Numbered from the stretch's first letter, positions 7,529 to 35,614 are shown. The stretch is 51,746 nucleotides of DNA from Bacteroidota bacterium (GCA_011049175.1 DSCJ01000108.1:1-51746); one strand, 5' to 3'. A program made the numbers and translations. The notes: generated by a model from the letters alone, not told the origin.

Positions 7529-7622
7529 ATATATTTTTTTAGAAATCCCGGAATGAACCGTCCGGGAAAAAATAATGAATCCACTTTGTGGCAAAGGGTC
7601 ATAATGCGGCATGGCACATACA

Positions 7623-8606: not shown

Positions 8607-8629
8607 TCAATGCATATATCAGGCAGAAA

Positions 8630-8637
8630 CAAAGATA
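8630..8637 (-). promoter_or_regulatory. Candidate mdh promoter, -7 box
   Basis: The minus strand reads TATCTTTG, a full TAnnTTTG match, 23 bases before the mdh ATG at 8606. It lies between the two mdh genes, so the intact copy can be transcribed independently of the frameshifted one. Confidence 0.55.
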
Positions 8638-8676
8638 AAAAAATCAGGGTTAACAGGAAGGTTCTTTTACAGCAAG

Positions 8677-9641
8677 TTACTCACAGCAATGGGCTCCTTC
8701 AAACAGGTTCATATTGTCCAGTACTTTCATAACGTCTTTCACTGAGCGGGCAGACTCCTGTAACAATTTCTTTTCATCCTGATTGAGTTCGATCTCTATG
8801 ATCTCCTCAATGCCGTTCCGGCCCAGCTTCACCGGAACCCCCATAAAAATATTTTCCAGTCCGTATTCTCCGTTCAGTCCGGCACATACCGGAAAAATCC
8901 TGTGCTGATCCATCACAATAGCTTCCACCATCTGCGCAGCGGCTGCCCCGGGGGCATACCAGGCTGATGTTCCCATAAGCTGTACCAGTTCTCCTCCTCC
9001 TTTACGGGTCCTTTCAACAATTTTTTCAATTTCCTCCTTCCCCAGCAGCTGCGTAACGGGAATCCCTCCTACTGAAGTATAGCGGGGCAAAGGGACCATG
9101 GTATCGCCGTGCCCCCCCCCAGCAAAAGAGCCTGTATGTCTCGGGGTGATACATTCAGTGCATCGGCAATAAACGACTTGTACCGGGCTGAATCCAGAAT
9201 GCCGGCCATGCCGAATACTTTGCGTGACTCCTTGTTGGCTGCCAGGTAAGCCACATAGGTCATAACATCGAGCGGGTTGGATACCACCACGATGACGGCA
9301 TCGGGGGAATACCGGATGGCTTTTTCCGTCACCTCTTTCACAATGCTGGCGTTGGTATGGATCAGGTCGGCACGCGAGATTCCCGGTTTGCGTGGAATGC
9401 CCGAGGTAATTACCACGACCGATGAGCCCCTGGTAGCCAGGTAATCGTCGGTAACCCCTGTGATCTTGGTATCGAAAATATTCACGGAAGCCGTTTGCCA
9501 CATATCCAGGGCTTTGCCTTCCGCAATTCCTTTTTTGATATCTACCAGTACGATTTGGTTAGCCAGCCCTTTGTGGGCAATGACATTGGCACAGGTGGCT
9601 CCCACATTACCGGCCCCGATAACGGTTATTTTTCTGCTCAT
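8677..9641 (-). pseudogene. Second malate dehydrogenase, frameshifted at a G9 run
   Basis: This paralogue of the mdh gene next door is split between two frames. The 5' part (from the ATG at 9641, MSRKITVIGAGNVG) carries the nucleotide-binding loop, the arginine segment SGIPRKPGISR, SNPLDVMT and GILDSAR. The 3' part carries HGDTMVPLPRYT, GTSAWYAPGAA and the C-terminus. The switch falls on a run of nine C (plus strand) at 9112-9120, exactly at the glycines before the catalytic His. Seven G on the coding strand would restore LLLGGHGDTM with the family spacing; ten would add one Gly. All other residues look functional and there is no other lesion. This may be a sequencing or assembly slip, a phase-variable tract, or a fresh pseudogene. 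An imperfect palindrome directly precedes the start codon. Confidence 0.85.
9112..9120. repeat. C9/G9 homopolymer inside the second mdh
   Basis: Nine consecutive C on the plus strand, the exact point where the reading frame changes. The corresponding place in the intact paralogue has no such run. Confidence 0.9.
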
Positions 9642-11277: not shown

Positions 11278-11289
11278 TGCTTGAACTGT

Positions 11290-12675: not shown

Positions 12676-12689
12676 TGCCGGATCAATTA

Positions 12690-14150
12690 TCAGTTATTGG
12701 TCGTATCCCGCTGGGCTCTTCCCTGCATAAAACGCTGGCGTACTTCTTCCGGTATGTCTTCCGGATTGAAATCGCCGGGTCGCATTCTTCCTCCCGCTCC
12801 CCGGTTGTTGCGCTGCAGCCGCTGATTGTTCACCTTTTCGGCTTCCCGGGTCCGTCTTTCTTCTTCTTCTCTGGCCTGACGAGCCTTTTCCTGTATCACA
12901 GAAATCAGTTCTTCTCCTTCGATTTTCATTTCCTCATGTCCTTCGGGAAGATTCAGGTATATCAGTTCACCAGCATCCAGGCCCTGTTCAACAATAATCT
13001 CGTTTTCATTCGAGACACCCAGCACCACCACCTGTTTTACTCCTTTTTTCTTAACCACATAAGGAATGCTGTCATCCACGTGCACCGCTTCCAGAGGAAT
13101 ATAATTAACATCGTCAAATACCTGGGTAATGATCTGGTTGCTGGTTGTCATGGCCGGGCGGAGAATGGGATCATATCCGTCGAGTTTAATAAGCACCTCA
13201 AACACCTTGGCATCGGTATTGGGTAATTGTTCGCCAATATTGGCCACGTGGGTTACCACTCCCGTGTATTTCTTTTCAGGAAAGGCATCCACCCCAATCC
13301 GCACCGGCTGCCCGGCATTCACTTTGCTGATATCAATCTCATTGACGTAGGTTTTTGATATCATGGTTGTAAGATCGGGCAGGGTGGCCACCACCAGGTC
13401 CCAGGGGCTGATACTGGATCCCACCTTCCGCCTGGTTCCGTCGTTTTCTTTTTTATAAATTACCATGCCTCTGGCAGGTGCCCGTATTTCAAACTTTTCA
13501 ATCACTTCTTCCATATCCCGCACATTCTGCCTGGCCTGCTCCAGGTCGATCTCTGCTTCACGCATATCGGCCCTGGCCTGTTCAAGCCGGAACTGGTAAT
13601 TCTGAACCGCCTGTTCGTAAGCTCTTTTGGCTTTGTCAAGACTGATCTGAGCCTGGCGAATGGTTGCGGGAGGCTCAAATTTCGACTGTTCCAGGGTAAT
13701 CTCTGCTTCCTCCACATTGAACTGCATATTGATCAACTCATCTCGCAGATTGCTCAGAGTCATGGCCGTATCCATTTTCACCCGCATATAACTGGCCTCT
13801 TCCTCTTCCAGCTGATCCTGGGCATTCTTCAAACTGTTGGAAACTTCCGAGCGGTCAAGCAAACCCACATAATCGCCGGAATCGACCATGGTACCCTCTG
13901 CAACCAGATCCTGTATCTTGATCTCTCCGAAACGAAGGTGTCTGCTGGTACGCAGTTCGGTTGGAGCCGTGATATCCACAGAGCTTTCTGCCTGGAGCTC
14001 TCCGGTGGTTGTGACCACAATTTCAAATTTTCCTTTCTTGACCTCCACCTCCAGCAGATTTGCTTTATCCTTTCCTGCTGCAGTATAAATAATAATGATC
14101 ACAGCCACCACAGCTATGATAACGGTCGGAATAATAATCTTCTTTTTCAT
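12690..14150 (-). CDS. MacA/HlyD-type periplasmic adaptor
   Basis: A 486-residue membrane-fusion protein bridging the permease and TolC. An N-terminal anchor helix (about residues 5-24) is followed by a beta-barrel/lipoyl half, a long alpha-hairpin (about 115-225, rich in Glu, Ala, Gln and Arg), the second lipoyl half with RAPARGMVIY near residue 230, and a barrel domain with GVVTHVANIGEQ. The last 70 residues form an unusual charged tail rich in Arg, Glu, Asn and Gln with no adaptor-domain character. It is first in the operon, downstream of a full -7 box, and followed by permease and tolC at gaps of 14 and 12 bases. Confidence 0.88.
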   Translation of the reverse strand: MKKKIIIPTVIIAVVAVIIIIYTAAGKDKANLLEVEVKKGKFEIVVTTTGELQAESSVDITAPTELRTSRHLRFGEIKIQDLVAEGTMVDSGDYVGLLDRSEVSNSLKNAQDQLEEEEASYMRVKMDTAMTLSNLRDELINMQFNVEEAEITLEQSKFEPPATIRQAQISLDKAKRAYEQAVQNYQFRLEQARADMREAEIDLEQARQNVRDMEEVIEKFEIRAPARGMVIYKKENDGTRRKVGSSISPWDLVVATLPDLTTMISKTYVNEIDISKVNAGQPVRIGVDAFPEKKYTGVVTHVANIGEQLPNTDAKVFEVLIKLDGYDPILRPAMTTSNQIITQVFDDVNYIPLEAVHVDDSIPYVVKKKGVKQVVVLGVSNENEIIVEQGLDAGELIYLNLPEGHEEMKIEGEELISVIQEKARQAREEEERRTREAEKVNNQRLQRNNRGAGGRMRPGDFNPEDIPEEVRQRFMQGRAQRDTTNN

Positions 14151-14181
14151 TATCGGATCGTAATATTCGTTTAATGAATAA

Positions 14182-14189
14182 CAAAAATA
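14182..14189 (-). promoter_or_regulatory. Candidate efflux-operon promoter, -7 box
   Basis: The minus strand reads TATTTTTG, a full TAnnTTTG match, 31 bases before the adaptor ATG at 14150 and in AT-rich DNA. Confidence 0.5.
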
Positions 14190-14313
14190 ATTTTCAGATC
14201 AATGCCATTGAATTTTTAACCAAATTTTAACATGGTTGTACAGCGGCTTTGAACCACTGTTCGGATTGTTGGACCTTCCTTTCACGGCTTTTATTCCCGA
14301 AACGATGTCTTTT

Positions 14314-19513: not shown

Positions 19514-20254
19514 ATGATAACGGGCAAAACAAAAATGGCCGATCTGATTCATCTGAATCATAAGTTACTACCCGTTATCGGAAGGTTCGGAATCAGCCTG
19601 GGGTTCGGCGACAGTACGGTGAATGAGATTTGCCGGAAAAAGGGTATTGAAACAGCCTTCTTTCTGGAGGTAGTGAACGCATTTCACGATCCCGACTATT
19701 ATCCACAGGAGAACCTTCGTCAATTCTCGCTTCAGCTTATTGTTGATTACCTCAGGAACACCCACCGCTTTTATCTGGATAAAAAGATCCCCGAAATTGA
19801 AGAAATGATCGAGGCAATGATCAGGGACTGCTATCCCGGAAAGGAACACATCGATCTGATAAAGGTTTTTTTCGGCAATTACCGGAAGGAACTCATCGCG
19901 CACATAGAACGGGAAGAAGAAACCGTTTTCCCGTATGCTCTCATGGTAGAAGAAGCTTTTCTGAAAGGCAGCCTGACCGGAGAGCAACGTGAACAGATCA
20001 GGAAAAGATCCATGAAAGATTATCAGGAAGAACATGATGATATTGAAGAGAAACTGTATGATCTGAAAAATATCATCATCAAATACCTCCCCCAACCACA
20101 GGATGTTTCAGGATGCACGCACATTCTCTATGAATTGTTCTATCTCGAGCAGGATATAAACGACCATTCCCGTATTGAGGACAAGGTACTTGCTCCCAAA
20201 GTAGAACAAATGGAAAAGGTACTTCTGGAGCGATACCCTTTGTCCGATGGCTGA
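19514..20254 (+). CDS. Hemerythrin-domain protein, Ric/YtfE/ScdA-like
   Basis: A 246-residue cytoplasmic protein with a four-helix hemerythrin domain. Candidate di-iron ligands are His84, His130, Glu134, His174, His218 and Glu222 (HIEREEETVFPY, HDDIEEKL, HSRIEDKVLAPKV). The spacing matches the Ric/YtfE group, which repairs iron-sulfur clusters after nitric oxide or oxidative damage. The N-terminal 60 residues (GRFGISLGFGDSTVNEICRKKGI) sit where ScdA-type proteins have a Cys-Cys motif, but that motif is absent. Its 3' end overlaps the next gene by 8 bases, suggesting translational coupling. The domain call is firm; the repair role is inference. Confidence 0.82.
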   Translation: MITGKTKMADLIHLNHKLLPVIGRFGISLGFGDSTVNEICRKKGIETAFFLEVVNAFHDPDYYPQENLRQFSLQLIVDYLRNTHRFYLDKKIPEIEEMIEAMIRDCYPGKEHIDLIKVFFGNYRKELIAHIEREEETVFPYALMVEEAFLKGSLTGEQREQIRKRSMKDYQEEHDDIEEKLYDLKNIIIKYLPQPQDVSGCTHILYELFYLEQDINDHSRIEDKVLAPKVEQMEKVLLERYPLSDG

Positions 20255-20843
20255 TCTTACGGCAATTGTTATTGAAAGTTCGTACGTGATACGCAAAGGC
20301 TGGACCCAGATACTCCGTTCCTTTGACGAAATCAGAAATATCTATGAATTCGCTGAAATAGAGGAATGCCTGCCCTTACTTCCCAAATACCATCCCGATC
20401 TGGTTCTGTATCATTCTTCCCGTATTCACCAGGAAATTGGATCATACCTGTCAGGAAAAGAAATTGGGAAAATTTTCTGGGTTGATATCTCACCGGAAGA
20501 ACATAAGAAAGAAAATGTTCCCGAATGGGCCGATCTGAGTCTTTCTCCCCTGCTCCCCCGCGAAAGGATCAGACAGTCGCTTGAACAGATCATGCATGAT
20601 CTGGGAGGAGTAACAGATCAGGACAATCACACGGAGCTGAGCCACAGGGAGATCACAGTACTTAAATTAATATCCAGGGGATTGACCAATAAAGAGATAG
20701 CCGATAAAATGTATATCTCGCCGCATACGGTGATCACTCACCGGAAAAACATTACACGTAAACTGGGAATAAAAACAGTGGCCGGTCTCACCGTTTATGC
20801 CATCCTGAACAAACTGGTAAGTCTCGATGAGATTGAATCGTGA
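20247..20843 (+). CDS. LuxR-type transcriptional regulator with degenerate receiver
   Basis: A 198-residue DNA-binding protein. The C-terminal 60 residues (131-190) are a clear LuxR/GerE helix-turn-helix (LSHREITVLKLISRGLTNKEIA, then HTVITHRKNITRKLGIKT). The N-terminal 120 residues have the outline of a receiver domain, but at the phospho-acceptor position after PDLVL the sequence is YHSS, with His56 where Asp is expected, and the acidic pocket near the N-terminus is not obvious. It is therefore probably not controlled by ordinary phosphorylation. The ATG lies inside the hemerythrin gene's last codons. No kinase is adjacent. It may respond to the hemerythrin's redox state or to a ligand; that is speculation. 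Confidence 0.82.
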   Translation: MADLTAIVIESSYVIRKGWTQILRSFDEIRNIYEFAEIEECLPLLPKYHPDLVLYHSSRIHQEIGSYLSGKEIGKIFWVDISPEEHKKENVPEWADLSLSPLLPRERIRQSLEQIMHDLGGVTDQDNHTELSHREITVLKLISRGLTNKEIADKMYISPHTVITHRKNITRKLGIKTVAGLTVYAILNKLVSLDEIES

Positions 20844-20870
20844 ATGGGGTCAGGGGATACTGATCCCCAT
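20844..20870. terminator. Hairpin at the convergent junction
   Basis: ATGGGGTCA (20844-20852) pairs with TGATCCCCAT (20861-20870) with one bulged T. An alternative stem is GGGGAT/ATCCCC (20853-20868). It overlaps the 3' end of the phosphatase gene between two stop codons only a few bases apart. No U-tract follows on either strand, so it is only a possible bidirectional transcription block. Confidence 0.3.
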
Positions 20871-23800
20871 AAACAGAACATCATCCACCTGGGGATATTC
20901 TTTTTTCCAAAGGAAGAAACTGGTTTTGATATGTTCATACTGTTCTTCCATAGGCAAACGGTGGATGTCATCCAGCAGATTTTTCAGCCTCACCATCTTG
21001 AATTTCTTGCCCAGCGGGCCTCCGAACTGGTCGGGATATCCGTCGGAGAACATATACAGAATATCCCCCGATTCAAGGGCATATTCCTGGTCCTGAAACT
21101 GCTTGGTGTCGAATAATTCGCCTCCGATGGAGCTTCTGTTTCCCCGGATATACATCAGTTCATTCCGGTGAAACAGCATAATGGGCCGCATGGCAGAAGC
21201 AAAACGCAGGTGACGGGTTTTCAGATTGATTTCGCAGATGGTAATATCCATCCCGTCGGTTGTACGCTGCATTTCCACATTCTGGTTCAGGGTCTGGGTA
21301 ATTTCATTATCGAGTTTCTCCAGTAGAAGTGAGGGGGTGGTAAGATCATCGCGCAGGGTGAATTCCTTGATCAGGGTAGACCCGATCATCGACATAAAAG
21401 CACCCGGCACACCATGTCCTGTGCTGTCGGCACATACGATCAGGAACCGGTCATTATTCACCCTGTCGAACCAGTAAAAATCGCCGCTCACAATATCGCG
21501 CGGAAGATAAAATATGAACGAACCCGGGAACTGTTCCTTCAGCTTGCTTTCGGGAGGCAATATACTGGCCTGTATGCGTTGTGCATAGTTGATACTGTCG
21601 GTAATCTCCCGGTTCTTGATCTCAAGTTCCTCCTTCTGCTCCACCACTTCGCGTGTCCTGATTTCCAGTTCCTTTTCCAGGTATTCCCTCAGCCGGCGCT
21701 GATTCTTTTCACGGATACGAATGATCAGAACAAACACCACAACGATGACCGATACGATGATAAGATAGAACCACCAGGTTTTCCATACGGGTTTCTGAAC
21801 AATGATCTCGAATGAGCAGGGAGTCTCGGTACAGATACCCGAAGAGGAGCAGGCGTGAAGCAGGAAACGGTATCTTCCGTCGGTAATCCTGGGGTAATTC
21901 ACAAAACGGTTCGACGAAGGCTCGGACCACTCGGGATCGTAGTTCTCCATCATAAACCGGTAAATCACACCCTGAGGATCTTTGTAGCTCAGGCCGATAA
22001 ATTCTATTCTTATCCTGTAAATGCCATAGGGAAGCCGGATGGTTTCCCGTAAGGGAACCGGGTCGTCGCCCACCCTTAGTGAGACAATGTTGGGTATGGG
22101 AGGACTGACAAGACTGCTTTCTTTCCTGTAATCATAACTGATCAATCCCTGTGTGGTTCCTATAAGAACACGCCCCGGCGTATCCAGTGTTATGGCCCCT
22201 GCATTGCAGTCGCTGGTTATACCCATGTTGGCGGAGTATGTTACCACCACGTTCCTTTCCACATCGATCCGGGAAATACCTGAACGGTGACCAACCCATA
22301 TATGTCCATTGGAATCAGCCAGTATACTCTTGCAGTATTCTGATAACAGGCCGTTATTCCGTGTATACATAAATACCGTATCGGAAGTAAAATGAAACAC
22401 ACCGTTCCCGTCGGTAGCAGCCCATACTTCACCGTTCGCATCGAGTATCAGATCGGTAAACACATTGGCTCGTATCAGAAAATGAGCGTCATGCACCTCC
22501 TTTAGTTCGCCTTCGGGAGAAATACGGTAGATCATCCGGGAAGTGGTGGCGATCCATGCATGATGATCTTCATCAACATATACAGCATTGATGCTGTTGT
22601 GCGAAAGTCCGTTCCGGTTGGTAAAATGCATTTTTTCTCCCGTACTGATCCGGATTCTGAAAACCCCGTACATGGTAGCGATCCATACATAATCGCCTCC
22701 TCCGGAAATATCCCTGACGGAGTTCTCGTTATTGTCCTGGGTACGGTGAACATTACGAAATAACCGTTCTCCTTTGCGTTTCAGGTATACACCGTTCCCT
22801 GAGGTACCTACCCACAGGGATCCTTTCTCATCCTTATAAATGGCAGTAATTTCATCATCAGGAAGTCCTGCTCCCGGGGTGGGGGTAAAAACGCCATCCT
22901 TATCCGGCGCGGAAGTGGCATATATTCCCGATTCGCTTCCCAGCCAGTAACCGTCCTCATCGGCAAATACCGACAAAATGTTATTTCCCAGTTCACTTTC
23001 GGAAAATTCATAAAAACCAAACGCCTCATCCAGTAACATGGATAATCCTCTGCCAAATGTCCCCATCCAGATATTCCCTTCGTGGTCCTGGTACACCTGC
23101 CGCACATTACCGGTAGGCAATCCGTTGGATGGATCGTACGCCACATACCCGGTATAGATTCCCTGCCGGGAATCAAAAACCAGCTTCACAGCACCCTGTC
23201 CAAAGGTGCTGACCCACAGGTTCTGATCCCTGTCTTCATATACATGCTGGATATTCAAATGATCCAGACCCAAACCCTGGGTAACGGATACGACTTCAGG
23301 CTCCATGCCGGGAACCACTGAATAAATGCCTCCGGCAGCAGCCACCCAGAACCCCCTGGCTTCTTTTCGGGGTATGATCCAGTTCACTCTTTCTTCGGGG
23401 ATTTCACCCACCCTTCTTTCCATTACCATCAGGCTGTCTCCCTGCTTCCGGTATACATACAATCCCCGGTCCGTGCCTATCAGCATCTTTTCCTGGTCCA
23501 TCCATCCGATAGAAAAGATCAGCCGGTCAATTTTTAAATGCTGCAGGGAATCCCGGTAATGGATCAGACCGTTTGCCTGGGTGGCAAGGTATATATCCCC
23601 GTCAGGAGTGGAGGTAATCTGGTTTATGTTTCCTCCCGTAAACTGCCGGCTGTTCACTAAATGAGAACCCGCTCTGTCTATAAACAATGCATTCCCGTCG
23701 CTGAATCCGGCCCATACCGTTCCGCCGGGGGTTTTGTAGAGGGTGGTCACATAGCCCTGCAGGGTGGAATCGTTCAGGGATACCTGAGTAAATTCTATTC

Positions 23801-24011
23801 CGTTGAAACGGCACAGGCCGTTGCCCGTACCCGCGATCAGATATCCGTTCTGATCCTGTATAATGCTATATATAAAGGAATTACAAATCCCTTCTGCCCG
23901 GTCGTAATTTCTGAACTGAAAGTTTTGTCCGGCCACCCCCTGAAAAGAGAACAGGATGACAGGCCATATCATCAGGAACCTTTTTATCAACTGAGCTGGG
24001 GAATATTGCAT
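20850..24011 (-). CDS. Beta-propeller sensor with SpoIIE/PP2C phosphatase output
   Basis: A 1053-residue transmembrane signalling protein. A signal peptide (residues 1-29) is followed by about 620 residues of two-component-regulator-type propeller repeats (recurring DxxGxxWxGTxxGL, W-I-A-T motifs), a Y_Y_Y domain (about 640-740, YRIRIEFIGLSYKDP and NYPRITDGRYRFLLHACSS), one membrane helix near 745-768, a coiled coil (about 770-820) and a SpoIIE-type Ser/Thr phosphatase. The metal-binding aspartates are in VSGDFYWF, ADSTGHGVPGAF and FSDGYPDQFGG. No histidine kinase part is present. Such proteins are expected to act on anti-sigma or anti-anti-sigma partners; none is encoded here. It closes the T9SS-linked block, 3 bases after the upstream gene. 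Confidence 0.9.
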   Translation of the reverse strand: MQYSPAQLIKRFLMIWPVILFSFQGVAGQNFQFRNYDRAEGICNSFIYSIIQDQNGYLIAGTGNGLCRFNGIEFTQVSLNDSTLQGYVTTLYKTPGGTVWAGFSDGNALFIDRAGSHLVNSRQFTGGNINQITSTPDGDIYLATQANGLIHYRDSLQHLKIDRLIFSIGWMDQEKMLIGTDRGLYVYRKQGDSLMVMERRVGEIPEERVNWIIPRKEARGFWVAAAGGIYSVVPGMEPEVVSVTQGLGLDHLNIQHVYEDRDQNLWVSTFGQGAVKLVFDSRQGIYTGYVAYDPSNGLPTGNVRQVYQDHEGNIWMGTFGRGLSMLLDEAFGFYEFSESELGNNILSVFADEDGYWLGSESGIYATSAPDKDGVFTPTPGAGLPDDEITAIYKDEKGSLWVGTSGNGVYLKRKGERLFRNVHRTQDNNENSVRDISGGGDYVWIATMYGVFRIRISTGEKMHFTNRNGLSHNSINAVYVDEDHHAWIATTSRMIYRISPEGELKEVHDAHFLIRANVFTDLILDANGEVWAATDGNGVFHFTSDTVFMYTRNNGLLSEYCKSILADSNGHIWVGHRSGISRIDVERNVVVTYSANMGITSDCNAGAITLDTPGRVLIGTTQGLISYDYRKESSLVSPPIPNIVSLRVGDDPVPLRETIRLPYGIYRIRIEFIGLSYKDPQGVIYRFMMENYDPEWSEPSSNRFVNYPRITDGRYRFLLHACSSSGICTETPCSFEIIVQKPVWKTWWFYLIIVSVIVVVFVLIIRIREKNQRRLREYLEKELEIRTREVVEQKEELEIKNREITDSINYAQRIQASILPPESKLKEQFPGSFIFYLPRDIVSGDFYWFDRVNNDRFLIVCADSTGHGVPGAFMSMIGSTLIKEFTLRDDLTTPSLLLEKLDNEITQTLNQNVEMQRTTDGMDITICEINLKTRHLRFASAMRPIMLFHRNELMYIRGNRSSIGGELFDTKQFQDQEYALESGDILYMFSDGYPDQFGGPLGKKFKMVRLKNLLDDIHRLPMEEQYEHIKTSFFLWKKEYPQVDDVLFMGISIP

Positions 24012-24014
24012 AAT

Positions 24015-24992
24015 CTAATCTTCCTTCTTTTGAACGGCAATTTTGTAGCGGTAGCGGGGAATTCCTCCAATAGGCGCCGTAAAGAAGGGCATGAATTCCC
24101 CGTATTGGTTCTGGATGGAGATCACTACATTGTTGTTTCTTACCATACCCGGTTCTTTTCTTTTGATAAACTGAAAATCAAGCGATGTACCGATCTCTTC
24201 CTCCTGTATCTGGAACTGGCTTTCGGCCCATTCGTCGTCACCAGATACGGCATTCAACTGGCTGTTCCTGACCACGGAAATGGTACGGATCTCCCCGTCA
24301 TCATCCCAGTCGAAATTTTGCTGTAAAACGCGTGTGGTTCCTTCATCCACAAAAGGATAGATATGTGAAATGTTGTTGGGATTGTTCCATAGCCGGAACG
24401 AATATTCATAGGTAAATGCATTGGCTCCTTCAATGGCTCTGTTATCATCGGGCAGTGAACTCAGGTAAAAACGGTACATGTTTCCATCGTCACCCGTAAC
24501 ACCCTCCACAATGATCTTGAACAGATACCCGTCGAAATCCTGGGAAAACTCTCCCTGGGTGGGGCTGAAAGGCCCGAAGGTAAACCAGTCATTATCATAT
24601 GTCGGATCATTCCCGAATGTTCTGGATGCCAGCAGGTTGCCGCTACGGTAATTCCCTACCGGATCAGCCGACCGGGCATCTTCATCCGACCAGCATCCAT
24701 TCCCTCCGTATACATCGTACTTCATCCGGGTATTGAATGCCACGTTGATTTCGTCATGATCTCCCCCGATATCCGGATCGAACACCCTGATATACAATGG
24801 TTCATCATAATCCTTTGGCACATAGAAAAAAAACACCAGGGAAAAATCATCATCTCCCCAGGATGTTTCAGCTTCCGGGCCGAAAGTCACCAGGTAGGGA
24901 ATATTTTCCTCCGGAGTGGGCACAGGCTGAAGGTATGCATGCACGGGCAGCAAAAAAATCAATAAACCGATATATCCTCTTTCCCCTTTCAT
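24015..24992 (-). CDS. Secreted protein of unknown function
   Basis: A 325-residue protein with an N-terminal signal segment (MKGERGYIGLLIFLLPVHAYLQ). The mature part is acidic and aromatic, with many Asp-Gly turns (FDPDIGGDHDEINVAF, SWGDDDF, DWDDDGEIRT) and probably beta-sandwich in character. I do not recognise a family. It lies directly upstream of the propeller-phosphatase (3-base gap) and downstream of the PD40-PKD gene. A frame start at 25004 is possible, but 24992 places the charged n-region correctly and follows a near-consensus -7 box. It may be a surface or periplasmic partner of the neighbouring type IX-linked proteins; this is inference from position only. Confidence 0.6.
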   Translation of the reverse strand: MKGERGYIGLLIFLLPVHAYLQPVPTPEENIPYLVTFGPEAETSWGDDDFSLVFFFYVPKDYDEPLYIRVFDPDIGGDHDEINVAFNTRMKYDVYGGNGCWSDEDARSADPVGNYRSGNLLASRTFGNDPTYDNDWFTFGPFSPTQGEFSQDFDGYLFKIIVEGVTGDDGNMYRFYLSSLPDDNRAIEGANAFTYEYSFRLWNNPNNISHIYPFVDEGTTRVLQQNFDWDDDGEIRTISVVRNSQLNAVSGDDEWAESQFQIQEEEIGTSLDFQFIKRKEPGMVRNNNVVISIQNQYGEFMPFFTAPIGGIPRYRYKIAVQKKED

Positions 24993-25005
24993 ATTGCTAA
25001 TCATC

Positions 25006-25013
25006 CAAATATT
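25006..25013 (-). promoter_or_regulatory. Possible internal promoter, -7-like box
   Basis: The minus strand reads AATATTTG, one mismatch from TAnnTTTG, 13 bases before the ATG at 24992. The 121-base gap here is the only substantial gap in the five-gene block. Confidence 0.3.
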
Positions 25014-25113
25014 ATGCCCGGTTTCGGTTTTTGCACGTTAAGCTCAGATTTCTGCACCTTCCAGCCGAAATTTACTGATTTTTCAAGAAATCGCAGGAGT
25101 GAGCTGTTTCTTG

Positions 25114-26559
25114 TCATGGCAAAACCTCTCCAGAATTATACAACACAACAATCTTTTTCATACCGCAAACCCTCACCCTGTTTTCAGCATGAGTCGCCCT
25201 GCTCTCAACAATCAACTGTACCCGGTACACTCCCGGTACCAGGAAAACATGCCGGGCTTCTATCCCCGTAGTTCCGGTTCCGTCTCCAAAATTCCAGTAA
25301 TATTCGTCAATGATCATCTCAGGCAAATAGGTATCTTCCCCGTTGAACAGGATTTCTTCTCCGGTATATACTGTATCCGGAGCGGCAATATGTACCTGTT
25401 CCAGTTTTTCAATATGCAACGGATAGGTAGCTACATTGGCCATGATAGCCCCGGTAAGTGTATCCACCACATTCAGTTTCAGCAAGTAGTCACCCGGAGT
25501 AAAGGTATGTTCCACCACACGCCCCCTCATGATCACCCCCTGATCAAGATCCCATTCATACTCATAGGTAAGGGTATCGAGGTCGCGGGTGCCGGGTTCA
25601 AATATTTCATAGGTAAAACGGTTTTCTTCCACTTCCTTGCAGGAATCGAGCCTGGGCAAAACAGAACGGAATTCGAATATATTATCTGTACGGGATCTGC
25701 TTGAAGTAAAATAACCTGAAGAAAGGTCCTCCCTGGCGATAAATGAAAAATCATCATCGGGTGAATTGAAGGGAGCAGGCAGGCAGATGGGTGGCAGCCA
25801 GCCGGTTTTCACCGGAACCGTAAAATAGATATCCAGTTGCCCGGCACCTCCCGGCCTGTCGGAGGTAAAATACAGTCTTCCGCTGGAGTGCACATACGGA
25901 AACATCTCATGAAAGGGCCCGTTAATTATGGGGCCGAGGTTCCGCGGTCTTCCCCACTGCCCGTTTTCCAGATAACATACATAGAGATCCGAACCACCGA
26001 AGCCACCGGCCTCATCAGATGCAAAGTAGAGTTTTGTACCATCGGGACTCAGGCAGGGATGGCCTATTTTATGCTCGGGATTATTGTAGGGAAAGGGCTC
26101 GGGCGTTGTCCAATGCCCGTTTTCCAGACTGGAAATAAAAATCCCGTAATTCGGGTTCCCTTTTTTTCTTTTCTTTTTTTCTCCGGCATCATAATTCCTG
26201 GTGAAATATATCTGTTTTCCGTCAGGAGAAAAAGTAGCAGGTCCTTCAAACTTCAGGCTCCTCAGCGTCTCATCGAAATACTGTGGTTTTCCCCATTCCG
26301 ATTTATCCGTCCGGCTGACAAAAAATAATTCCGACTGAGCTTCATTGTTTTCGTTGGCCACATAACCCTGAAAAATACCTGTCCGCCTGTCGGAACAAAA
26401 TACAATCCCGTTACCATAATACACCGGTGCAAAATCATTAAAAATCCTTGAACTGAAAGGCAAACGTTCCACCACATAGTTTTCCTGTGCCCCGGAAAAA
26501 CCGCTCAGGACAGAAAAAACCAGACTACATATCAACCTGTATGGTTTGCCCGTATTCAT
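25114..26559 (-). CDS. PD40 beta-propeller and PKD-repeat exported protein
   Basis: A 481-residue exported protein. A signal peptide (about 1-24, ending SGAQ) is followed by a WD40-like PD40 propeller (about 30-300) with repeats such as TFSPDGKQIYFTRN, CLSPDGTKLYFASDEAGGFGGSDLYV and GRLYFTSDRPGGAGQLDIYF. Two PKD-like modules follow (about 310-400 and 400-475), the second with the typical YYWNFGDGTGTTG. The propeller resembles that of the type IX component PorE, but the TPR and OmpA-like domains of PorE are missing. It follows porP/sprF after 6 bases, so the two are very likely co-transcribed. A role in binding peptidoglycan or carrying the surface protein is inference. Confidence 0.8.
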   Translation of the reverse strand: MNTGKPYRLICSLVFSVLSGFSGAQENYVVERLPFSSRIFNDFAPVYYGNGIVFCSDRRTGIFQGYVANENNEAQSELFFVSRTDKSEWGKPQYFDETLRSLKFEGPATFSPDGKQIYFTRNYDAGEKKKRKKGNPNYGIFISSLENGHWTTPEPFPYNNPEHKIGHPCLSPDGTKLYFASDEAGGFGGSDLYVCYLENGQWGRPRNLGPIINGPFHEMFPYVHSSGRLYFTSDRPGGAGQLDIYFTVPVKTGWLPPICLPAPFNSPDDDFSFIAREDLSSGYFTSSRSRTDNIFEFRSVLPRLDSCKEVEENRFTYEIFEPGTRDLDTLTYEYEWDLDQGVIMRGRVVEHTFTPGDYLLKLNVVDTLTGAIMANVATYPLHIEKLEQVHIAAPDTVYTGEEILFNGEDTYLPEMIIDEYYWNFGDGTGTTGIEARHVFLVPGVYRVQLIVESRATHAENRVRVCGMKKIVVLYNSGEVLP

Positions 26560-26565
26560 TTCGCC

Positions 26566-27507
26566 TTAAAAATACCTTGGATTATGAGCCCTGATTTTAC
26601 TGAACAATTCATATCTTATAAAGATCTCATGACTGCCATTCAGGTAATGATTCATTTGTGAAAGGGCATAATCATAGGAATAACCAATCAATAATCTGTC
26701 GCTTATCTGAAACTCGATAATGCCCACCACGGCAGGTCCGGTATTTTCGATATCGGTCCGGTAAGAAGCTCCCAGCCACAGAAAGTCGTTGAACAAAATG
26801 AAACTGGTATTGACATCGAACTGAATACTGTTCGAAGCGGGTTGATACTTAACCAGTACGGAAGGCTTCCATTTGAACGCCGGGGTTGAAACCAGGAGCA
26901 CCCCTCCGGTAAGGAAATAATTATAATCGACCATATCCCATGAGGGCTTGTAACCGGAACTGAGTGTATCGATACGGTAAGTGGTAAGCAGGGGAACCGA
27001 AGCGCCCAGGTAAAAACGGTCGGTTGAATAGTACATGCCGAACCCGAAATTGGGCAGAACAGCCGATTCGGGTACCCGGGTAAAATAGGGATCATCAGGA
27101 TCGTCCAGGGTGATTCTTGACAGATCCTGTGCTTCAAAAAACGCTCCGGCCTTCAGTCCCAGTGACATGATCCCATTTCCCATAGGAAAGCGGTAAGCAT
27201 AGTTAAGATACGCCTGGGTCCGGTTTCGGATATCGATCATTTCGCGCATCAGAAAAACACCCAGACCCACCCGCTGCTTTTTCAGGGGAGTATGCATACT
27301 GAATGTCTGTGCTTCAGGAGCATTTTCTATACCGGCCCATTGTTTCTGGTACATCAGGCTCATACTAAGCGCCTCCCTGCTGCCGGCATAGGCGGGATTA
27401 ATGGCCAGCCCGTTGAACATATACTGACTGAACCCGGAATACTGATTCTGGGAAAAAACCGCCAGGGAAGTCCCCGCAAGCCATATGAAAAGAAATATCT
27501 TTTTCAT
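26566..27507 (-). CDS. PorP/SprF-family type IX secretion membrane protein
   Basis: A 313-residue outer-membrane beta-barrel protein of the PorP/SprF family. A signal peptide ends near residue 19 (SLAVFSQNQ). The family hallmarks are QYSGFSQYMFNGLAINPAYAGSREALSMSLMYQKQW near the start and alternating beta strands to the end (LLIGYSYDYALSQM, then HEIFIRYEL). SprF is needed for secretion of the adhesin SprB in Flavobacterium, and such genes usually sit beside substrates with type B sorting domains. Here the upstream gene encodes exactly such a substrate and the two overlap by 4 bases. This is strong support for a substrate/partner pair. Confidence 0.9.
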   Translation of the reverse strand: MKKIFLFIWLAGTSLAVFSQNQYSGFSQYMFNGLAINPAYAGSREALSMSLMYQKQWAGIENAPEAQTFSMHTPLKKQRVGLGVFLMREMIDIRNRTQAYLNYAYRFPMGNGIMSLGLKAGAFFEAQDLSRITLDDPDDPYFTRVPESAVLPNFGFGMYYSTDRFYLGASVPLLTTYRIDTLSSGYKPSWDMVDYNYFLTGGVLLVSTPAFKWKPSVLVKYQPASNSIQFDVNTSFILFNDFLWLGASYRTDIENTGPAVVGIIEFQISDRLLIGYSYDYALSQMNHYLNGSHEIFIRYELFSKIRAHNPRYF

Positions 27508-30500
27508 CTTTCCGTACCGCGGATTAAGATAAAGCCACTGCGGGTACTGTCACCATCTACTTTAATAATGTAGTAATAAGTATCATCGGGCAATTGTTCT
27601 CCGTTAAGGTTCCTGCCATCCCAGCCGGTCTGATCATCACGCATGAAATTTTCTTCCCGGTAAACCATATTGCCCCACCTGTTAAAAATAATCAGTTCAT
27701 TGTTCCGGTCCCTGGGCAAATATATTCTGAAATAATCATTTTTCCCGTCACCGTTCGGTGTCAAACCCCTGGCTCCTGCCTTAAATGCCGGAACCGTAAT
27801 TATCATCGAATATACTTCCTCACAGGCACCATGGGTGATAGTGAAGAAAACCGTTTGCGATCCCATTTCCAGGTGGGTCAGCAGAGTGGTTTCGGAATTA
27901 TCGGGACTGAATACGACGGGGCTTCCCGGTTCTGCGCTCCACAGGTAGGTTCCGATCTCGGGATCCTCCACATCGGCCGTAAGCTCCACTTCATTGGCAT
28001 AAGGCTCAAGTACCGTATCACCGGGAAATGTAACCGCTGACACTTCGTTCCAGAAAGTAATGGTCACCTCGTCGTTATCGGCCGGACACGGCCCATTGAC
28101 AACGTTCCAGATAAAGGTGTGGGCCCCTTCCCCGGTTACCGTCACCGTCTTGTTTGGATTGGTATTATCCGAAACATCGGCCACTGCCGCCGGGAAGGTC
28201 CATGTACCGGTTCCCACATTCGTGCCGGCCTGCAGTTCATATTCCAGTCCGCACACTTCCTCATCGGGACCTGCATCGGCCACAGGGGCGCCGTACACGG
28301 TAATATTTGCTTCACCGGTCATTCCCGAACCATCGGCCTGGCAACCGTTACCGTCGGTCACAGAATACAGTGTGTACACCAGGGCTTCACTTTCCGTGGT
28401 TGTTTCGGGGGTAACCGGGTGCTGAAATACGGCAGTTCCAATGGCATTTTCGGTATACTGGGCGGTCCCGTCGGTCAGGGTGACATCCCAGGGAGCTGTA
28501 CCGGTAAGACTGATTGTAATATCCACAGGAGTTTCGCTGCAAACCGCGATGGAGGGATCGGTGATGGTTGCCGTGGGCAGGGGATGTATATCTACCATCA
28601 CGGAAGGGCTGATATCCAGACAGCATCCGGCCGGCCCGGAAATGACCGTTCTGCGGTAATACAACGGACTGGTAAGTGCCGGAGTAGTATAGGATAACTC
28701 ATCATGGGTTCCGTCAGCCCCAACCCAGTTGACATTGTCGGCACTCTGCTCCCAGTAGTAGGTATATGAACCTTCCCCGGCTCCTCCTTCCGGTTCTGGG
28801 GGATTCAGTGTGGTATTGGTGCCCGAGCAGATGGTTCCGGGATCGGGAATCACATTGTTTGTGATCACCGGCAGAACATTCACAACTACTTCATGGGCGC
28901 TGGTTTCCGTGCACTGGCCAGAAATCACGGTACGCCTGAAGCGAGTGGTCTCTGTCAGGGCTCCCGGACTGTAATCGGGAGCATCAGGGCCCGTGGGTGT
29001 CCAGGTAGCACCGTCGTCAGTGCTGAATTCCCACACGTATGTATATATTCCGGTCCCTCCGCTAAGGGGATTAGGTTCGGAAACCATTGGATTCGGGGTT
29101 TGGCCGGAACAGATCGTTGTGTCATATAAACCTGAAATGGTCTGAATATCGGTATGCTGCAGGGCCGGATGAACGGAAATGGTATCTATCCCGCTGATAT
29201 CCTGACACACATCGGAAGTAACTATTCGTCTGATAAAAACAGTATCTGTGAGGGGCGATGAGAAACTCAGGTCCCGGGAGTCAGCTCCGGAAATGTCCTG
29301 CCACGTTCCTCCGGAAAGGCTGTCCTGCCACTGGTACAGGTAGGTAGCCGGTTTTCCCCCGGAAACATCGTCGCCGATCACATCCTGGGGAATATCTCCT
29401 TCACAGATCACCTGGTCGGTAACAAAGGCATTGTTGGCAATGGCCGGCCACTGGATCAGGGTTACCGTATTGGAAATACTCTGGCAAACATCATCCGAAC
29501 CCGAATACACCACTCGTCGGAAATACCGGGCCGACTGGGACGGAAAAACGGGATCGCCCACCGCATCGGGCTGATAGTCTTCCTGGTCGGTCACAGCACC
29601 CCAGGCACTGGCATAGGTATTCCCGTCAAGACTTTCTTCCCATACAAACCGGTAAGTACCGTCGCCGTTGGCCGGAGGAAGCCCGTCGAGAAGGGCAAAG
29701 GCCGTTCCTTCACAGATCACCTGGTCGGCGCTGATGGTATTGTTGGTGATAGCCGGCAGTACCGTGATGGTTACCGTATCGCTCACCTCATAGCATTTTC
29801 CGGAATAAACCCAGCGCCGGTAATAAGTTGTTTGCGTTAGAGCAGGCGGCTGATAGGAAGCACCTGTAAAAGTACCGGCTGCCTCTGTAAAATTCACTTC
29901 ATCGAGACTTTCCTCCCAACGATAGGCATAGATACCATCCCCGCCGGTGGGAACGGCCACATCGGGCTCCAGCAGGGGAGGAACCTGATTATAACAAACG
30001 GTATCTTCGAAGGTAATGGAATAATCCTCCAGCGCGGGATGCACATTCACCACCACCGGTTTGCTCACATCCACAATCTGTGGAACGGACATATCCTGCA
30101 CAATGCGCCGGTACCATGTGGTATCGGCCAGGGGGGCAGTGGGTACATAATTTTCGCCGGTGGCCCCGGAAATATCGTTCCATGTCGATTGATCGGTACT
30201 GTACTGCCAGGTAAAACTGTAAGGAGTGACCCCTCCCTTGGGTTCTGAACCAATGATCATGGATGGGACCGTTCCCTCACAGATGGTATCGGTCAGGTCG
30301 TTGGTAGAAGCCCATTTGATGGTATTGAACAGGAAACCGGTAATGACCACATCCAGATTGGAAGTCATCTCACCGTTAGCCCCGTTATAACCAAAATCTC
30401 CACAACCATAATCCTGACCTCCCACACCACCGCCAATCAGGGTGGTTACATTGCCGGGCAATGTCGTTTCCTTATGCCAGATCAATCCCCCCCCTCCTCC

Positions 30501-31649
30501 TCCTCCCGGGCCACTGCAATTTCCGTCGCCTCCTTTTCCTCCAGTAACATTCACTTCCAATGAAGAAGTATGGTAAGAACGTACTTCTAACCCAATGGTA
30601 CCGCCAGCCCCGCCTCCACCTGCCCCGCCGGTGGAATTGGGCACATTGGCTGCCGATTCTCCAAGGGCCAGAATCCGGTGGCCGTTCCCCACCAGGCTGT
30701 CAGCCACCAGAATGATCATACCCCCTCCATTCCCCCCGTTCGTGGCATCACCCGGATTATCATAGGTAGAGGAACCTCCTCCCCCTCCCATCACCAGTCT
30801 GCGACTGGAAAAATATTCAATACCACTGAGGGAAAGACCGTTTCCAGGCAACCCTCCAAGTAAATACAAAGATGTGCAACTTTCATTCCCGGCGCCTCCT
30901 CCTTTTCCAATATTTCCACCTCCTCCACCTCCGGAATACCTTCCATTGCCCCCACCACCTCCGTTATACAATTTCCCCCGGCCTTTCTGATAAACTGAGC
31001 TGTATGGCGCCCCACCCTCAATAAATGAAACAATCCCCTCGCCCTTGTTTCCGGCCATCTGGGAGGAAGCATCATAATAATAGTCATCGTATAGATCGGG
31101 ATCGGTTTCCGAACAAACGCCATCTCCCTGATCAGCCACTCCCCCACGCAATCCCTTTGACGACACATCGATATCGGCATTCAGTACCAGGGTGTTACTG
31201 ACAAACAGGGTCAAGACACCCCCCTTCCCCCCGTCCCATGGGTCACAGGTAAGCATACCGGTTACTTCGGCTTTGTCATATCCATGTACGCGAACCAATT
31301 GCATACTTCCACCTACCTGATAACTGGCAACATTCTGCAGTTCATGGGTGAAGGAAATCTGGTTGCCGCTGACTGAGGCAATGCGGATAAATTCGTATTT
31401 CCCAACACCTCCCCATCCTTGTTTGGAACCAAAATTATTGTCGTTGCTCACCTGTATTTCCACCCCTTTCATCTGGATCACCAGTACCGTATCTTCTTCG
31501 GAAAAAGCCGAAGCATCATCCACGGTTACCTGGTCGGCTGCATCGATGGATACAATCCGGGCATAGTCGTTCACCACACCTGACAGGGGCGTTCCCTGCG
31601 GAAAGGCCAAATGCATCCCTCCTGCCATCAGCAGCAGGGAAAACATCAT
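27504..31649 (-). CDS. Giant surface protein with CHU_C type IX (type B) sorting domain
   Basis: A 1381-residue exported protein. After a hydrophobic N-terminus it has a beta-rich region, then a Gly-rich region (about 190-430) with many GGGGGG stretches. Six homologous modules follow (about 455-1040), each with ICxGxxP near its start, a central YxWExSxDxxxW and an ending YYRRxVxSGxC. PKD/Ig-like modules come next (about 1050-1290). The C-terminal 90 residues (LTPNGDGKNDYFRIY, IFNRWGNMVY, WDGRNLNGEQLPDDTYYYII) are the gliding-motility-associated CHU_C domain, a type B type IX signal. The family role is a surface adhesin or filament. The Met-Met start lacks a positive n-region; the codons just upstream would encode one, but only a CTG could start there. 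Confidence 0.9.
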   Translation of the reverse strand: MMFSLLLMAGGMHLAFPQGTPLSGVVNDYARIVSIDAADQVTVDDASAFSEEDTVLVIQMKGVEIQVSNDNNFGSKQGWGGVGKYEFIRIASVSGNQISFTHELQNVASYQVGGSMQLVRVHGYDKAEVTGMLTCDPWDGGKGGVLTLFVSNTLVLNADIDVSSKGLRGGVADQGDGVCSETDPDLYDDYYYDASSQMAGNKGEGIVSFIEGGAPYSSVYQKGRGKLYNGGGGGNGRYSGGGGGGNIGKGGGAGNESCTSLYLLGGLPGNGLSLSGIEYFSSRRLVMGGGGGSSTYDNPGDATNGGNGGGMIILVADSLVGNGHRILALGESAANVPNSTGGAGGGGAGGTIGLEVRSYHTSSLEVNVTGGKGGDGNCSGPGGGGGGGLIWHKETTLPGNVTTLIGGGVGGQDYGCGDFGYNGANGEMTSNLDVVITGFLFNTIKWASTNDLTDTICEGTVPSMIIGSEPKGGVTPYSFTWQYSTDQSTWNDISGATGENYVPTAPLADTTWYRRIVQDMSVPQIVDVSKPVVVNVHPALEDYSITFEDTVCYNQVPPLLEPDVAVPTGGDGIYAYRWEESLDEVNFTEAAGTFTGASYQPPALTQTTYYRRWVYSGKCYEVSDTVTITVLPAITNNTISADQVICEGTAFALLDGLPPANGDGTYRFVWEESLDGNTYASAWGAVTDQEDYQPDAVGDPVFPSQSARYFRRVVYSGSDDVCQSISNTVTLIQWPAIANNAFVTDQVICEGDIPQDVIGDDVSGGKPATYLYQWQDSLSGGTWQDISGADSRDLSFSSPLTDTVFIRRIVTSDVCQDISGIDTISVHPALQHTDIQTISGLYDTTICSGQTPNPMVSEPNPLSGGTGIYTYVWEFSTDDGATWTPTGPDAPDYSPGALTETTRFRRTVISGQCTETSAHEVVVNVLPVITNNVIPDPGTICSGTNTTLNPPEPEGGAGEGSYTYYWEQSADNVNWVGADGTHDELSYTTPALTSPLYYRRTVISGPAGCCLDISPSVMVDIHPLPTATITDPSIAVCSETPVDITISLTGTAPWDVTLTDGTAQYTENAIGTAVFQHPVTPETTTESEALVYTLYSVTDGNGCQADGSGMTGEANITVYGAPVADAGPDEEVCGLEYELQAGTNVGTGTWTFPAAVADVSDNTNPNKTVTVTGEGAHTFIWNVVNGPCPADNDEVTITFWNEVSAVTFPGDTVLEPYANEVELTADVEDPEIGTYLWSAEPGSPVVFSPDNSETTLLTHLEMGSQTVFFTITHGACEEVYSMIITVPAFKAGARGLTPNGDGKNDYFRIYLPRDRNNELIIFNRWGNMVYREENFMRDDQTGWDGRNLNGEQLPDDTYYYIIKVDGDSTRSGFILIRGTER

Positions 31650-31840: not shown

Positions 31841-34800
31841 TTACGAGATTTTTCCTCCGGAGATTTCTTTGCCTGAAAACTGGTTTCCCGGATGATACAC
31901 AGGAAGTTCCACATAAAAAGTGGTTCCTTCACCCACACGGGTCTCATAATGGATACTTCCTCCCGTATTTGAAACGATATTGCGCACGATAGCCAATCCC
32001 AGTCCCATTCCGCTCGATTTGGTCGTAAAATTGGGTACAAACAATTTTTCCCCCAGCTCATCGGGGATCCCTTTTCCATTATCGGAAACGGCAATGATCA
32101 CCCTTTCACCCTCCAGGGTCAGATCGATCCCCACCCGACCTTGTCGGTCTTCGGGAATGGCCTGGATGGCATTTTTCACCAGGTTGGTCAGCACACGCAA
32201 CATCTGTTCCTTGTCGGCCATAACCATGGCTTCACTCAGGTCATGCACATCCACACGGATCTCCACATTTTCAGTATTGCCAAACAGTTCGGCGATATTC
32301 CATACCTTTTCCACCATGTTCACAGGCTCAAAGCTGGATGTGGGCATCTGGGCAAAATGTGAAAAAGCATTGGCTATGGCCGAAAGGTTTTCAATCTGTT
32401 CAATCATCGTATGGGTAAACCGCTGAAAGTTCTCCTCCCATCCGGGGGCCCGGTCTTCATAGGCCCTTTTCACCTGCTGAATACTCAATTTCATGGGGGT
32501 CAGAGGATTCTTGATCTCATGGGCTACCTGACGAGCCATTTCCCTCCATGCCGACTCCCGCTCGGAACGGGCCAGTTTTTCCACACTCCGGGCCAGCTCG
32601 GTTACCATGCGGTTGTATTCATGCACCAGTTCACCGATCTCATCTTCTCCCTCATAAGAAATCTTTTCATAGCTCCTTCCCAGTTTCAGGCGGCTGAATT
32701 TACGCTGAATCATCCGCAGCGGATCGGTAATTTTGTTGGAGATCAGTACCGCCAGAAAGATGGTCAGGATCAGCAAAAGAAAGGAAATATTCACAATGGC
32801 CACCACCAGAAGGGATATTTCCCTCGACAGCGAAGTTTGTTTGGTAAAATAGGGCAGGTTGAGATAGGCCAGCAACTGGTTTTCCGCATTGGTAAACGGC
32901 ACATAGGCCGACAGAAAATTCATTTCCCCTATGTTCTCACGGTGAACAAATTCGGCTTTCCGGTTCCAGCGGAGTTCCCGGTATGCCTGATTGTCAATGC
33001 GCCTCCCCGTTAGTCCTTTATCAAATATCTCAGGTCGTGAAGTGGCCAGTAACTTCCCCTCCGGACTGTAGAGGTTGATATCGGTATAGAACACATTGGA
33101 ATACCTTACCAGCAAATCGTTCAGGTCGACATACTGCCCCCCCGACCAGTCCGGATCCAGAAAAGATTCATAGGCCAGTTCATGATCCAGTACCACATAC
33201 ACCGACTGGATTTTCTCACGGATCATTTCATTGTGTTTGGCCCGGTATTGCCTGATGCTGTAATATACCGCACCTCCCCCGATCAGAACCAGTGCCAGAA
33301 TAAGAATTCCCACCATGGCCGTCTGTATCCTGGTTTTGAAAGTGAGCCGGATATTTTGAAAAATACCGGGGATATTGATCATCAGTAGGATGATGTTCAT
33401 CCACAGAAAAAAGTACACAAAAAGGTAGGAGGCATCGATCAACAGATCGATACCGCTCAGATCAGGTGTGCTTATAATGATCTGTTTGTCCGGGTCAATG
33501 CGGTAGATCAGATGGCTGTACCCGTCGAAATGAAGAAAACTGAATTCTTCTTCCCGGAGATCGTACACATCCAGGCTCAGGCTGTAAGGAAAATCACCCG
33601 ACTGGGTAATCAAACGGTTGCGGATGTACCTGGCCCAGGAGTAGCGCTCCAGACGGGTCGATTTCTCAAACCGGCTGTCAAGTAACAGTTCGGGATATCC
33701 CAAATGGGTATAGGTGAGGCGCGAATCCAACCTTATGAACAGGGTATTGGTCATGCCCGGGTTCAAAGGATAAGAAAACCTGCCGAAATAGGTGATTCTT
33801 CCATTCGCATCGTTCAGGAACCAGAAATTGCTGCTGGGTAAAGCTTCCCCTATCATCTCAAGCATTTCATCAAAGAAGGCATAGCAGTTACTGACGGTAT
33901 CCCTGTCGAGTATTTCCAGTTCCGATTGTTCATTACAGATGGTGATTTCCAGATAATACTGCTCCCAGAATCCGCTGAAATAATCTGTTTGCAGGTATTC
34001 GAAAATGCTGTCAACCTCTGCAGGGGAAAACCCCGGTTTGCCAAGTAAAGCGGCCAGAAGGGTGTCTGATTCCAGCTTTCCCCCCATTTCTTCAAGCAAC
34101 ACCTCGGCCACGGCATCATGTTCCGTAGCCAGATTCACTGCCAGCACCTTTCTTATATTTTTCTCCTTTTCATTATTGAAAAAAGCAATATTGTAAAGAG
34201 CCAGCAGGGTAAAAAGCAATACCAGCAGGGTCAGGAAACTGTATTTCCAGCCTTTCCGGTGGCGGTTTCTGATCCAGATCAGAAACGCATTGAACAGGTA
34301 AAAGAAAACCATCTGTACCACCTGTAAATTTCCGGTGAACCAACCGGTCAGCAGGAATGATATCGTGATCCCGGCCAGGGCCATCATTTGAAGCTTTTTC
34401 TGACCTGCCGGGGCGATCCCTGCCGAAAAGATTGCGTCGAGTATCAGAAAAGCGGAAAAAAACAGCAATCCCACAGCCATCAAAGCCAGAAAAGTATTGA
34501 CCGAAAGGTCAAGCAGGCGGTGAAGCTCAAAGGATATGCTGGAATGAATGATCAGTGACCTGAAAAGATACTCAACGAACAAAAACCATCCCCCTGCCAG
34601 AGCATAAAGAAATATACCCGTCACCCACTGAAGATTTTTTCTTTCCGGAAGTGTGATATGAAACCTGGTAATCCCGCCGTACAAAAGATAGACCAGAAAA
34701 AAGGCCATCACGGCAAAAATCACCAGGTCACCCAGTGATGCCCATGGACCTGTTCCTGCATACAAAAGAGGAGAAAACAGCTCCATCCGGCATACCAGTT

Positions 34801-35614
34801 CCGGTACTGCCAAAAACCGCATCAACTCCTTCAGGCCGGACAGGAACAGAAAGGAAAACAACCAGCCCGTAAAATACCGTTTCCTGTCGGGCATCATTCT
34901 GAGCCAGGAAGCCAAAAAAAACAGCAGCGACAGAAAGGTGATCAAATAAAGAAAAACCGGAATACTGAAAGGAGGGGCCGCATCTGAGGGAGGTGCCAGT
35001 CCGGTCAGGTAGAAAACCACCTTCCCTGAAAGATCATGTACCGGAAAAGCCTGGCTGCCGGGTTCCATCGGACCCTTCACCCGGATCCAGGATGGGAGCC
35101 CGTAATCTTTCTGGAACTCGTTTCTCAGAAACTCATTCTGATAGGGATATCTGTATTTGATCAGAATCATGCCCACCAGCCGGTAAGGCCCTGATTCCCT
35201 GTAAAGACCCAGATGAAAGGAGTTATCCAGTTCTAAAAAAGGCCGCGAAAACAATTCCGGCGACCATTCCCAGGGGAGGGGAATGTCGTTGTCCGACCAG
35301 TAGATTAAACTGTCGTTCCTGTACAGCAACAGGGTAAATCCCTCGCCCTGAAGTTTTTTCTCCACCTCTTCGCCATATTCCGCGCTCCAGGAATCCCCTC
35401 CAGTATGTTCCAGTTCCGCAGCCACCCGGTTGAGCAAAATATCCATAGCCTGTTCCTTTTCAAGCAGGATTTCCTGAAATTCAGCCATTTCCATATCCGG
35501 AACCCGGCTGCGGATATAGGCTTTCCCCGCAAGAAAAGATAAAAGGGTGAGCAACAGGAACAAAACCAGCAGCAGAAAGGGACTCTTAAAAGTAATTCTG
35601 GTCAGTTTCAACAT
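31841..35614 (-). CDS. Large NtrY-like transmembrane sensor histidine kinase
   Basis: A 1257-residue membrane kinase. It has an N-terminal helix and periplasmic stretch (1-210), a block of several membrane helices (about 215-490), a second extracytoplasmic region (about 490-720), further helices near 730-790, another sensory region and a helix near 925-950. A HAMP-like linker ([12 protein letters not shown]), a HisKA domain with the phospho-acceptor His around residue 1032 in [14 protein letters not shown], and a HATPase domain with N box [19 protein letters not shown] and [13 protein letters not shown] follow. The HEIKNPLTP motif is typical of NtrY. No response regulator gene is adjacent, so the partner is unknown. 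It is twice the usual kinase size. The rlmH stop lies 3 bases upstream of its start. Confidence 0.9.

Follow-up and report, generated by a model that had tools for sequence, protein, structure and literature searches.

Analysis of a 51,746-nucleotide stretch of DNA (the window) from a Bacteroidota bacterium of the Bacteroidales (GCA_011049175.1, DSCJ01000108.1) revealed a block of five genes, all on the minus strand, in the order CHU_C protein, PorP, PD40/PKD protein, a secreted protein without a known family (UNK) and a propeller-SpoIIE protein. This conserved run combines a large secreted surface protein and its outer-membrane anchor with a very well conserved exported protein and a membrane receptor ending in a phosphatase, a composition that points to a cell keeping watch on the structure at its surface. 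The reading towards which we lean is that the block encodes a T9SS-anchored surface complex read by a trans-envelope receptor that acts on SiaC-type phosphoproteins. How Bacteroidota sense events at their own surface is a largely open question, on which the block would bear.

Layout of the five-gene block

The open reading frames lie -4, 6, 109 and 3 nt apart along the block, from the CHU_C gene to the propeller-SpoIIE gene (Table 1). An earlier note made from the sequence had described a five-gene block at 20850-31649 with a 4-base overlap, spacings of 6 and 3 bases and a gap at about 25000-25110, and our analysis agrees with it; the domains it had named were recovered with both Pfam and NCBIfam, the fourth protein giving no family match.

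Table 1. Features of the block and its surroundings, in window positions
Feature	Position	Strand	Evidence
CHU_C substrate, type-B T9SS (1381 aa)	27504..31649	-	Pfam CHU_C 1.9e-19; NCBIfam TIGR04131 7.8e-14, above cut-off
PorP/SprF outer-membrane barrel, cognate	26566..27507	-	Pfam PorP_SprF 6.1e-69; TIGR03519 247 bits vs cut-off 90.55; 0 cysteines
PorE-like PD40 propeller + PKD protein	25114..26559	-	PD40 3.3e-22; PKD_4 1.5e-19; NF052230 PorE 157 bits vs cut-off 600
UNK, Sec signal, DxDxDG loop	24015..25004	-	0 Pfam/NCBIfam matches; 31-sequence alignment; AlphaFold2 model
Transmembrane receptor, Reg_prop/Y_Y_Y + SiaA-like PP2C	20850..24011	-	Pfam Reg_prop, Y_Y_Y, SpoIIE; SiaA NF038263 171 bits vs cut-off 700
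NtrY-like histidine kinase, upstream neighbour outside block	31841..35614	-	HisKA, HATPase_c
Intergenic gap PD40-PKD/UNK, 109 nt	25005..25113	-	Terminator scan; RNA fold z-score -0.11

A terminator-like scan of the gap between the PD40-PKD and UNK genes found no intrinsic terminator, the RNA fold of the gap is not unusual, and at nine further block loci the equivalent gap measures between -4 and 208 nt. A 38-codon frame in the gap (window 25004-25117, minus strand), which overlaps both flanking genes and is open in two species (here and in locus L031), was considered as a gene and set aside as probably not coding, 13 of its 15 nucleotide differences being in non-synonymous codons.

The surface genes

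By homology, the first three genes are of a known kind, namely a type-B T9SS substrate, its cognate PorP/SprF protein and a PorE-like protein. The C-terminal CHU_C/TIGR04131 signal of the CHU_C protein is above cut-off in both Pfam and NCBIfam, and the protein also carries Ig_7-like repeats and a glycine-rich, AgmC-like N-terminal domain (window 30440-31580, minus strand; NF047640 AgmC_N 175 bits, under the cut-off of 275). N-terminal domains like that of the gliding protein AgmC were found again in several other block substrates.

The PorP/SprF gene follows directly downstream. The window PorP has no cysteine and hence no CxC in its C-terminal tail, which ends in NPRYF, so that an SprF-type disulfide to GldK is impossible. 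PorE combines TPR, propeller, CRD and OmpA parts. No OmpA domain, TPR or recognisable lipobox was found in the PD40-PKD protein. Its NF052230 match spans only positions 145-417 of PorE and lies below cut-off, and the protein is therefore called PorE-like rather than PorE; the PorE-like relatives in loci L068, L044 and L140 do carry OmpA. The genome itself encodes the T9SS core, with SprA at 2796 bits and GldK, GldL, GldM and GldN above their cut-offs. Among its other PorP loci, four lie next to a candidate for a large T9SS substrate, and no PorE-like or SpoIIE neighbour was seen in the stretch examined around them.

To our knowledge, no purpose beyond display is known for static type-B T9SS complexes. 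According to the available text of two papers, each type-B substrate binds a PorP/SprF protein of its own, and where the operon also contains a PorE-like gene, a static complex anchored to the cell wall has been proposed (PMC9143113, PMC12618676). The examples in the same text, Flavobacterium johnsoniae Fjoh_3952-3950 and P. gingivalis PG1035-PorP-PorE, resemble the block in having a CHU_C-type substrate, a PorP/SprF shuttle-anchor and a PorE-related propeller, the whole being proposed static (PMC9143113, PMC12618676). The block differs from them in that its PorE-like protein lacks OmpA, TPR and lipobox, and in that it adds UNK and a propeller-PP2C receptor, an addition absent from the available text of both papers. 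The earlier note knew of no described system of such composition; this has to be narrowed, since the first three genes are a kind described in that text, and what is new is confined to UNK and the receptor that are added to them. The large CHU_C-type protein beside a PorP-family carrier also recalls the gliding adhesin pair SprB/SprF. F. johnsoniae SprF, however, is tied to the GldK track by a disulfide made through a CxC (PMC12635249), and the block PorP has no such tail; the block also has a PorE-like gene, unlike SprB/SprF, so its complex is probably static.

UNK, a new protein family

UNK is, judged by its sequence, a new and highly conserved protein family. No match to it was found in Pfam or NCBIfam, and sequence and profile searches against the PDB gave chance matches only. 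Among the block members it is the best conserved, with a mean pairwise identity of 0.53 against 0.29-0.36 for the others over ten loci. The protein has a Sec signal, a near-invariant mature N-terminus (QPVPA-x-x-ENIP) and a C-terminal PIGGVPKY motif. In an alignment of 31 sequences the loop N-x-D-x-D-x-D-G at positions 230-237 is invariant (D232, D234, D236 and G237), and UNK is probably calcium-binding, as this loop is typical of such sites. The AlphaFold2 model (pLDDT 80.6, pTM 0.80) is all-beta and may be read as two sandwich-like domains. No global fold match to the model was found in the PDB; the best TM values were at most 0.26 of the query (DeCLIC, SIDT1 and CUB-type beta-sandwiches), and no function is transferred from these proteins because the values are low.

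Neither a lipobox nor a T9SS signal was detected in UNK, and from this and the Sec signal it is predicted to be soluble and periplasmic. The same signals leave its place open to another arrangement, in which UNK belongs to the outer surface assembly rather than facing the periplasm and the receptor is an envelope-quality sensor of periplasmic stress arising from failed assembly. A PDZ-trypsin-like protease gene after the receptor in locus L140 would fit this arrangement, but genes for proteases or chaperones were not seen repeatedly beside the block, and we regard it as very improbable.

The receptor

Analysis of the last protein of the block revealed Reg_prop propellers and a Y_Y_Y domain, predicted to be periplasmic, one transmembrane segment at about residues 745-767 and a SpoIIE/PP2C domain predicted to be cytoplasmic. 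The PP2C part matches the PP2C of Pseudomonas SiaA in the PDB (6k4e, 5.1e-33) and retains all four metal-site motifs intact (GDFY, DSTGHG, SDGY and DDVL). The match to the full-length SiaA equivalog NF038263 covers residues 775-1049 only, at a score below cut-off, so the likeness is to the SiaA phosphatase half. In a tree, eight of the block receptors group together with good support (99/99), apart from nine other SpoIIE proteins of the genome that holds the window (G000), the placement of the receptors of L068 and L044 in this tree not being settled. At locus L139 of genome G042 (5852-9434), the propeller receptor ends in HisKA and HATPase instead of a phosphatase, and a receiver gene lies alongside. 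Nothing else indicates as strongly as this exchange of the output that the last gene acts as the receptor of the block. Propeller-SpoIIE proteins of Bacteroidota were not found in our literature search.

The ectodomain matches those of HTCS proteins of known structure (4a2l, 2e-42; 3v9f also matched). As in HTCS of the BT4663 type (PDB 4a2l), a homologous periplasmic Reg_prop/Y_Y_Y ectodomain is followed by one transmembrane segment; the output of the block receptor is PP2C and not a histidine kinase with receiver, a kinase being found only in the L139 block. Sensors placed beside their targets are common in Bacteroidota, the hybrid two-component sensors next to polysaccharide utilisation loci being an example. 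This layout, together with the HTCS-like propellers, speaks for a receptor that responds to a separate soluble ligand, for instance a glycan, and governs the making or use of the surface complex without reading it. We consider such a regulator unlikely. PP2C is not a transcription factor, UNK, which has no known ligand, stays fixed between the surface genes and the receptor, and distant UNK domains keep signalling neighbours without PorP or CHU_C.

Conservation of the block

Comparison of 68 distinct UNK loci revealed that 60 of them have a PD40 gene directly upstream and a propeller receptor downstream, both in the orientation of UNK. Three of the 68 have the receptor with no PD40 match, and five have PD40 with no receptor match (L042, L043, L045, L046 and L047). 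In two of these five, from gut Bacteroidales (L042 and L043, about 11200-14200), a CarboxypepD_reg/OMP_b-brl_3 barrel gene follows UNK in the place of the receptor; L046 has neither receptor nor barrel gene after UNK, and in L045 and L047 little sequence is left downstream of UNK. The complete order CHU_C-PorP-PD40-UNK-receptor is kept in the longer loci of several families, with tight or overlapping spacing. UNK was found in 36 of 60 relatives, in 38 of 295 Bacteroidales genomes (about 15 families) and in 11 of 395 genomes across the phylum. The earlier note would have been refuted if the last two genes were not conserved with the first three; this is not the case, and the co-conservation of the block is far beyond chance.

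Part of this gene order is accounted for by vertical inheritance, since at the main chromosomal site the flanking genes, for Era/Der GTPases and an NtrY-like kinase, keep their places too in several families; much of the synteny there may be vertical. These flanks, and the five loci that keep UNK without a receptor match, would agree with mere neighbourhood, that is, a static type-B/PorP/PorE-like complex with UNK as its calcium-binding stabiliser, next to an unrelated phosphatase sensor that vertical gene order has kept in place. This seems to us quite improbable, because the block stays intact where the flanks differ (L137, L139, L140 and L145), it is duplicated within one genome with the output of one copy swapped, its genes are almost without spacing, and around the other CHU_C-PorP pairs of the genome the stretch examined shows no SpoIIE gene as a neighbour. 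The duplicated case is G042, which has three UNK loci and the block in more than one copy.

An apparent fusion of UNK and receptor in genome G672 (open frame of 1397 aa) was rejected: it consists of two separate open reading frames with 15 nt between them, which seem to share one frame that a stop codon interrupts.

The UNK domain in distant Bacteroidota

In distant Bacteroidota the UNK domain stands at the N-terminal end of giant proteins, about 1600 aa long, that carry about 15 PKD domains. In five loci (L061, L062, L065, L066 and L067) these giants adjoin genes for a Cache-HAMP histidine kinase or a guanylate cyclase, mostly with FecR-LysM, and receiver-SpoIIE genes occur in three; L061 has two copies in tandem. 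Two further genomes (L063 and L064) have the giant without such signalling partners. The distant loci with signalling neighbours have no PorP or CHU_C. Signalling partners thus recur alongside the UNK domain in the block and in the distant operons, although the two arrangements differ greatly.

SiaB and SiaC as the likely output

In Pseudomonas aeruginosa, SiaC is phosphorylated by SiaB and dephosphorylated by SiaA (PMC7647112). The block shares with this SiaABC(D) threonine-phosphorylation switch (PMC7647112) a membrane receptor with a homologous PP2C, and SiaB and SiaC homologues are present in the genome. It differs in that its sensor half is a Reg_prop/Y_Y_Y propeller, that SiaB and SiaC are encoded elsewhere in the genome and not adjacent to the block, and that it is tied to a T9SS surface operon. 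One siaB lies next to a siaC on contig C5, and there are five SiaC genes in all; a Ser/Thr-rich site is kept in the four SiaC proteins read (e.g. YFNTSSSK). At locus L044, a gene of the DUF6272/SiaB family directly follows the block receptor.

SiaB occurs in all 38 UNK-positive Bacteroidales genomes, compared with 123 of the full set of 295. The hypergeometric p is 7e-17 when genomes are counted and about 3e-6 when families are counted, the family totals being estimates; relatedness and lifestyle inflate the association. About 11 SpoIIE genes of the genome share one SiaB, which makes the assignment of the block receptor to this pathway uncertain.

Proposed mechanism and meaning

For a surface complex read by a trans-envelope receptor, the following course may be proposed. 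By homology, the CHU_C protein would be exported via SprA and dock on the PorP barrel that is its partner, to which PD40-PKD, the PorE-like protein, would bind at the periplasmic side. UNK would form a bridge between the surface complex and the propellers that the receptor has in the periplasm. Once a load, strain or ligand acts on the complex, the receptor may change its state across the inner membrane. The receptor PP2C would then dephosphorylate a SiaC-type phosphoprotein, itself phosphorylated by a SiaB-type kinase, and this dephosphorylation may alter the behaviour of the cell, for example its attachment. The physical contact, the stimulus, the direction of signalling and the choice of SiaC as substrate are steps that we infer.

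A putative signalling role is supported by the kinase swap at L139, the SiaB-family neighbour at L044 and the signalling neighbourhoods of the distant UNK domains. The earlier note had supposed a surface structure whose state is sensed and signalled inward. One functional unit that joins a T9SS-built surface structure with a transmembrane phosphatase facing inward is well supported by co-conservation, the kinase swap and the distant signalling neighbours; that the surface structure is the stimulus, that the proteins touch and that the signal runs inward are parts of the course proposed here.

Going further, and only tentatively, the block may represent a previously undescribed arrangement in which a T9SS-secreted, PorP-anchored protein is read, with UNK as a dedicated adaptor family, by a propeller receptor whose outputs can be exchanged; the UNK domain would then be a sensing module used across Bacteroidota and coupled to a phosphatase, kinase or cyclase. 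The literature searched, which lacks many subscription journals, shows no such operon extended by UNK and a propeller-phosphatase receptor, and the available text of the top-ranked papers that pair T9SS or PorP with phosphatases does not describe the operon. If a conserved operon ties a static type-B complex to a SiaA-type phosphatase, it would offer a path, open to testing, by which the state of the surface could reach protein phosphorylation in the cytoplasm; the block also defines in UNK a new, highly conserved family for study.

Genes beside the block

The NtrY-like kinase also lies upstream of the block in L031, L033, L034, L036, L037, L039, L040, L136, L138 and L141-L143. It was considered as a sixth member and rejected, being absent beside L137, L139 and L145 and having an RlmH-like housekeeping gene as its own neighbour. 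On the other side, a LuxR-type regulator (window 20247-20843, plus strand) is convergent with the block and adjoins a hemerythrin/RIC-like gene; it is kept in L031, L033 and L036.
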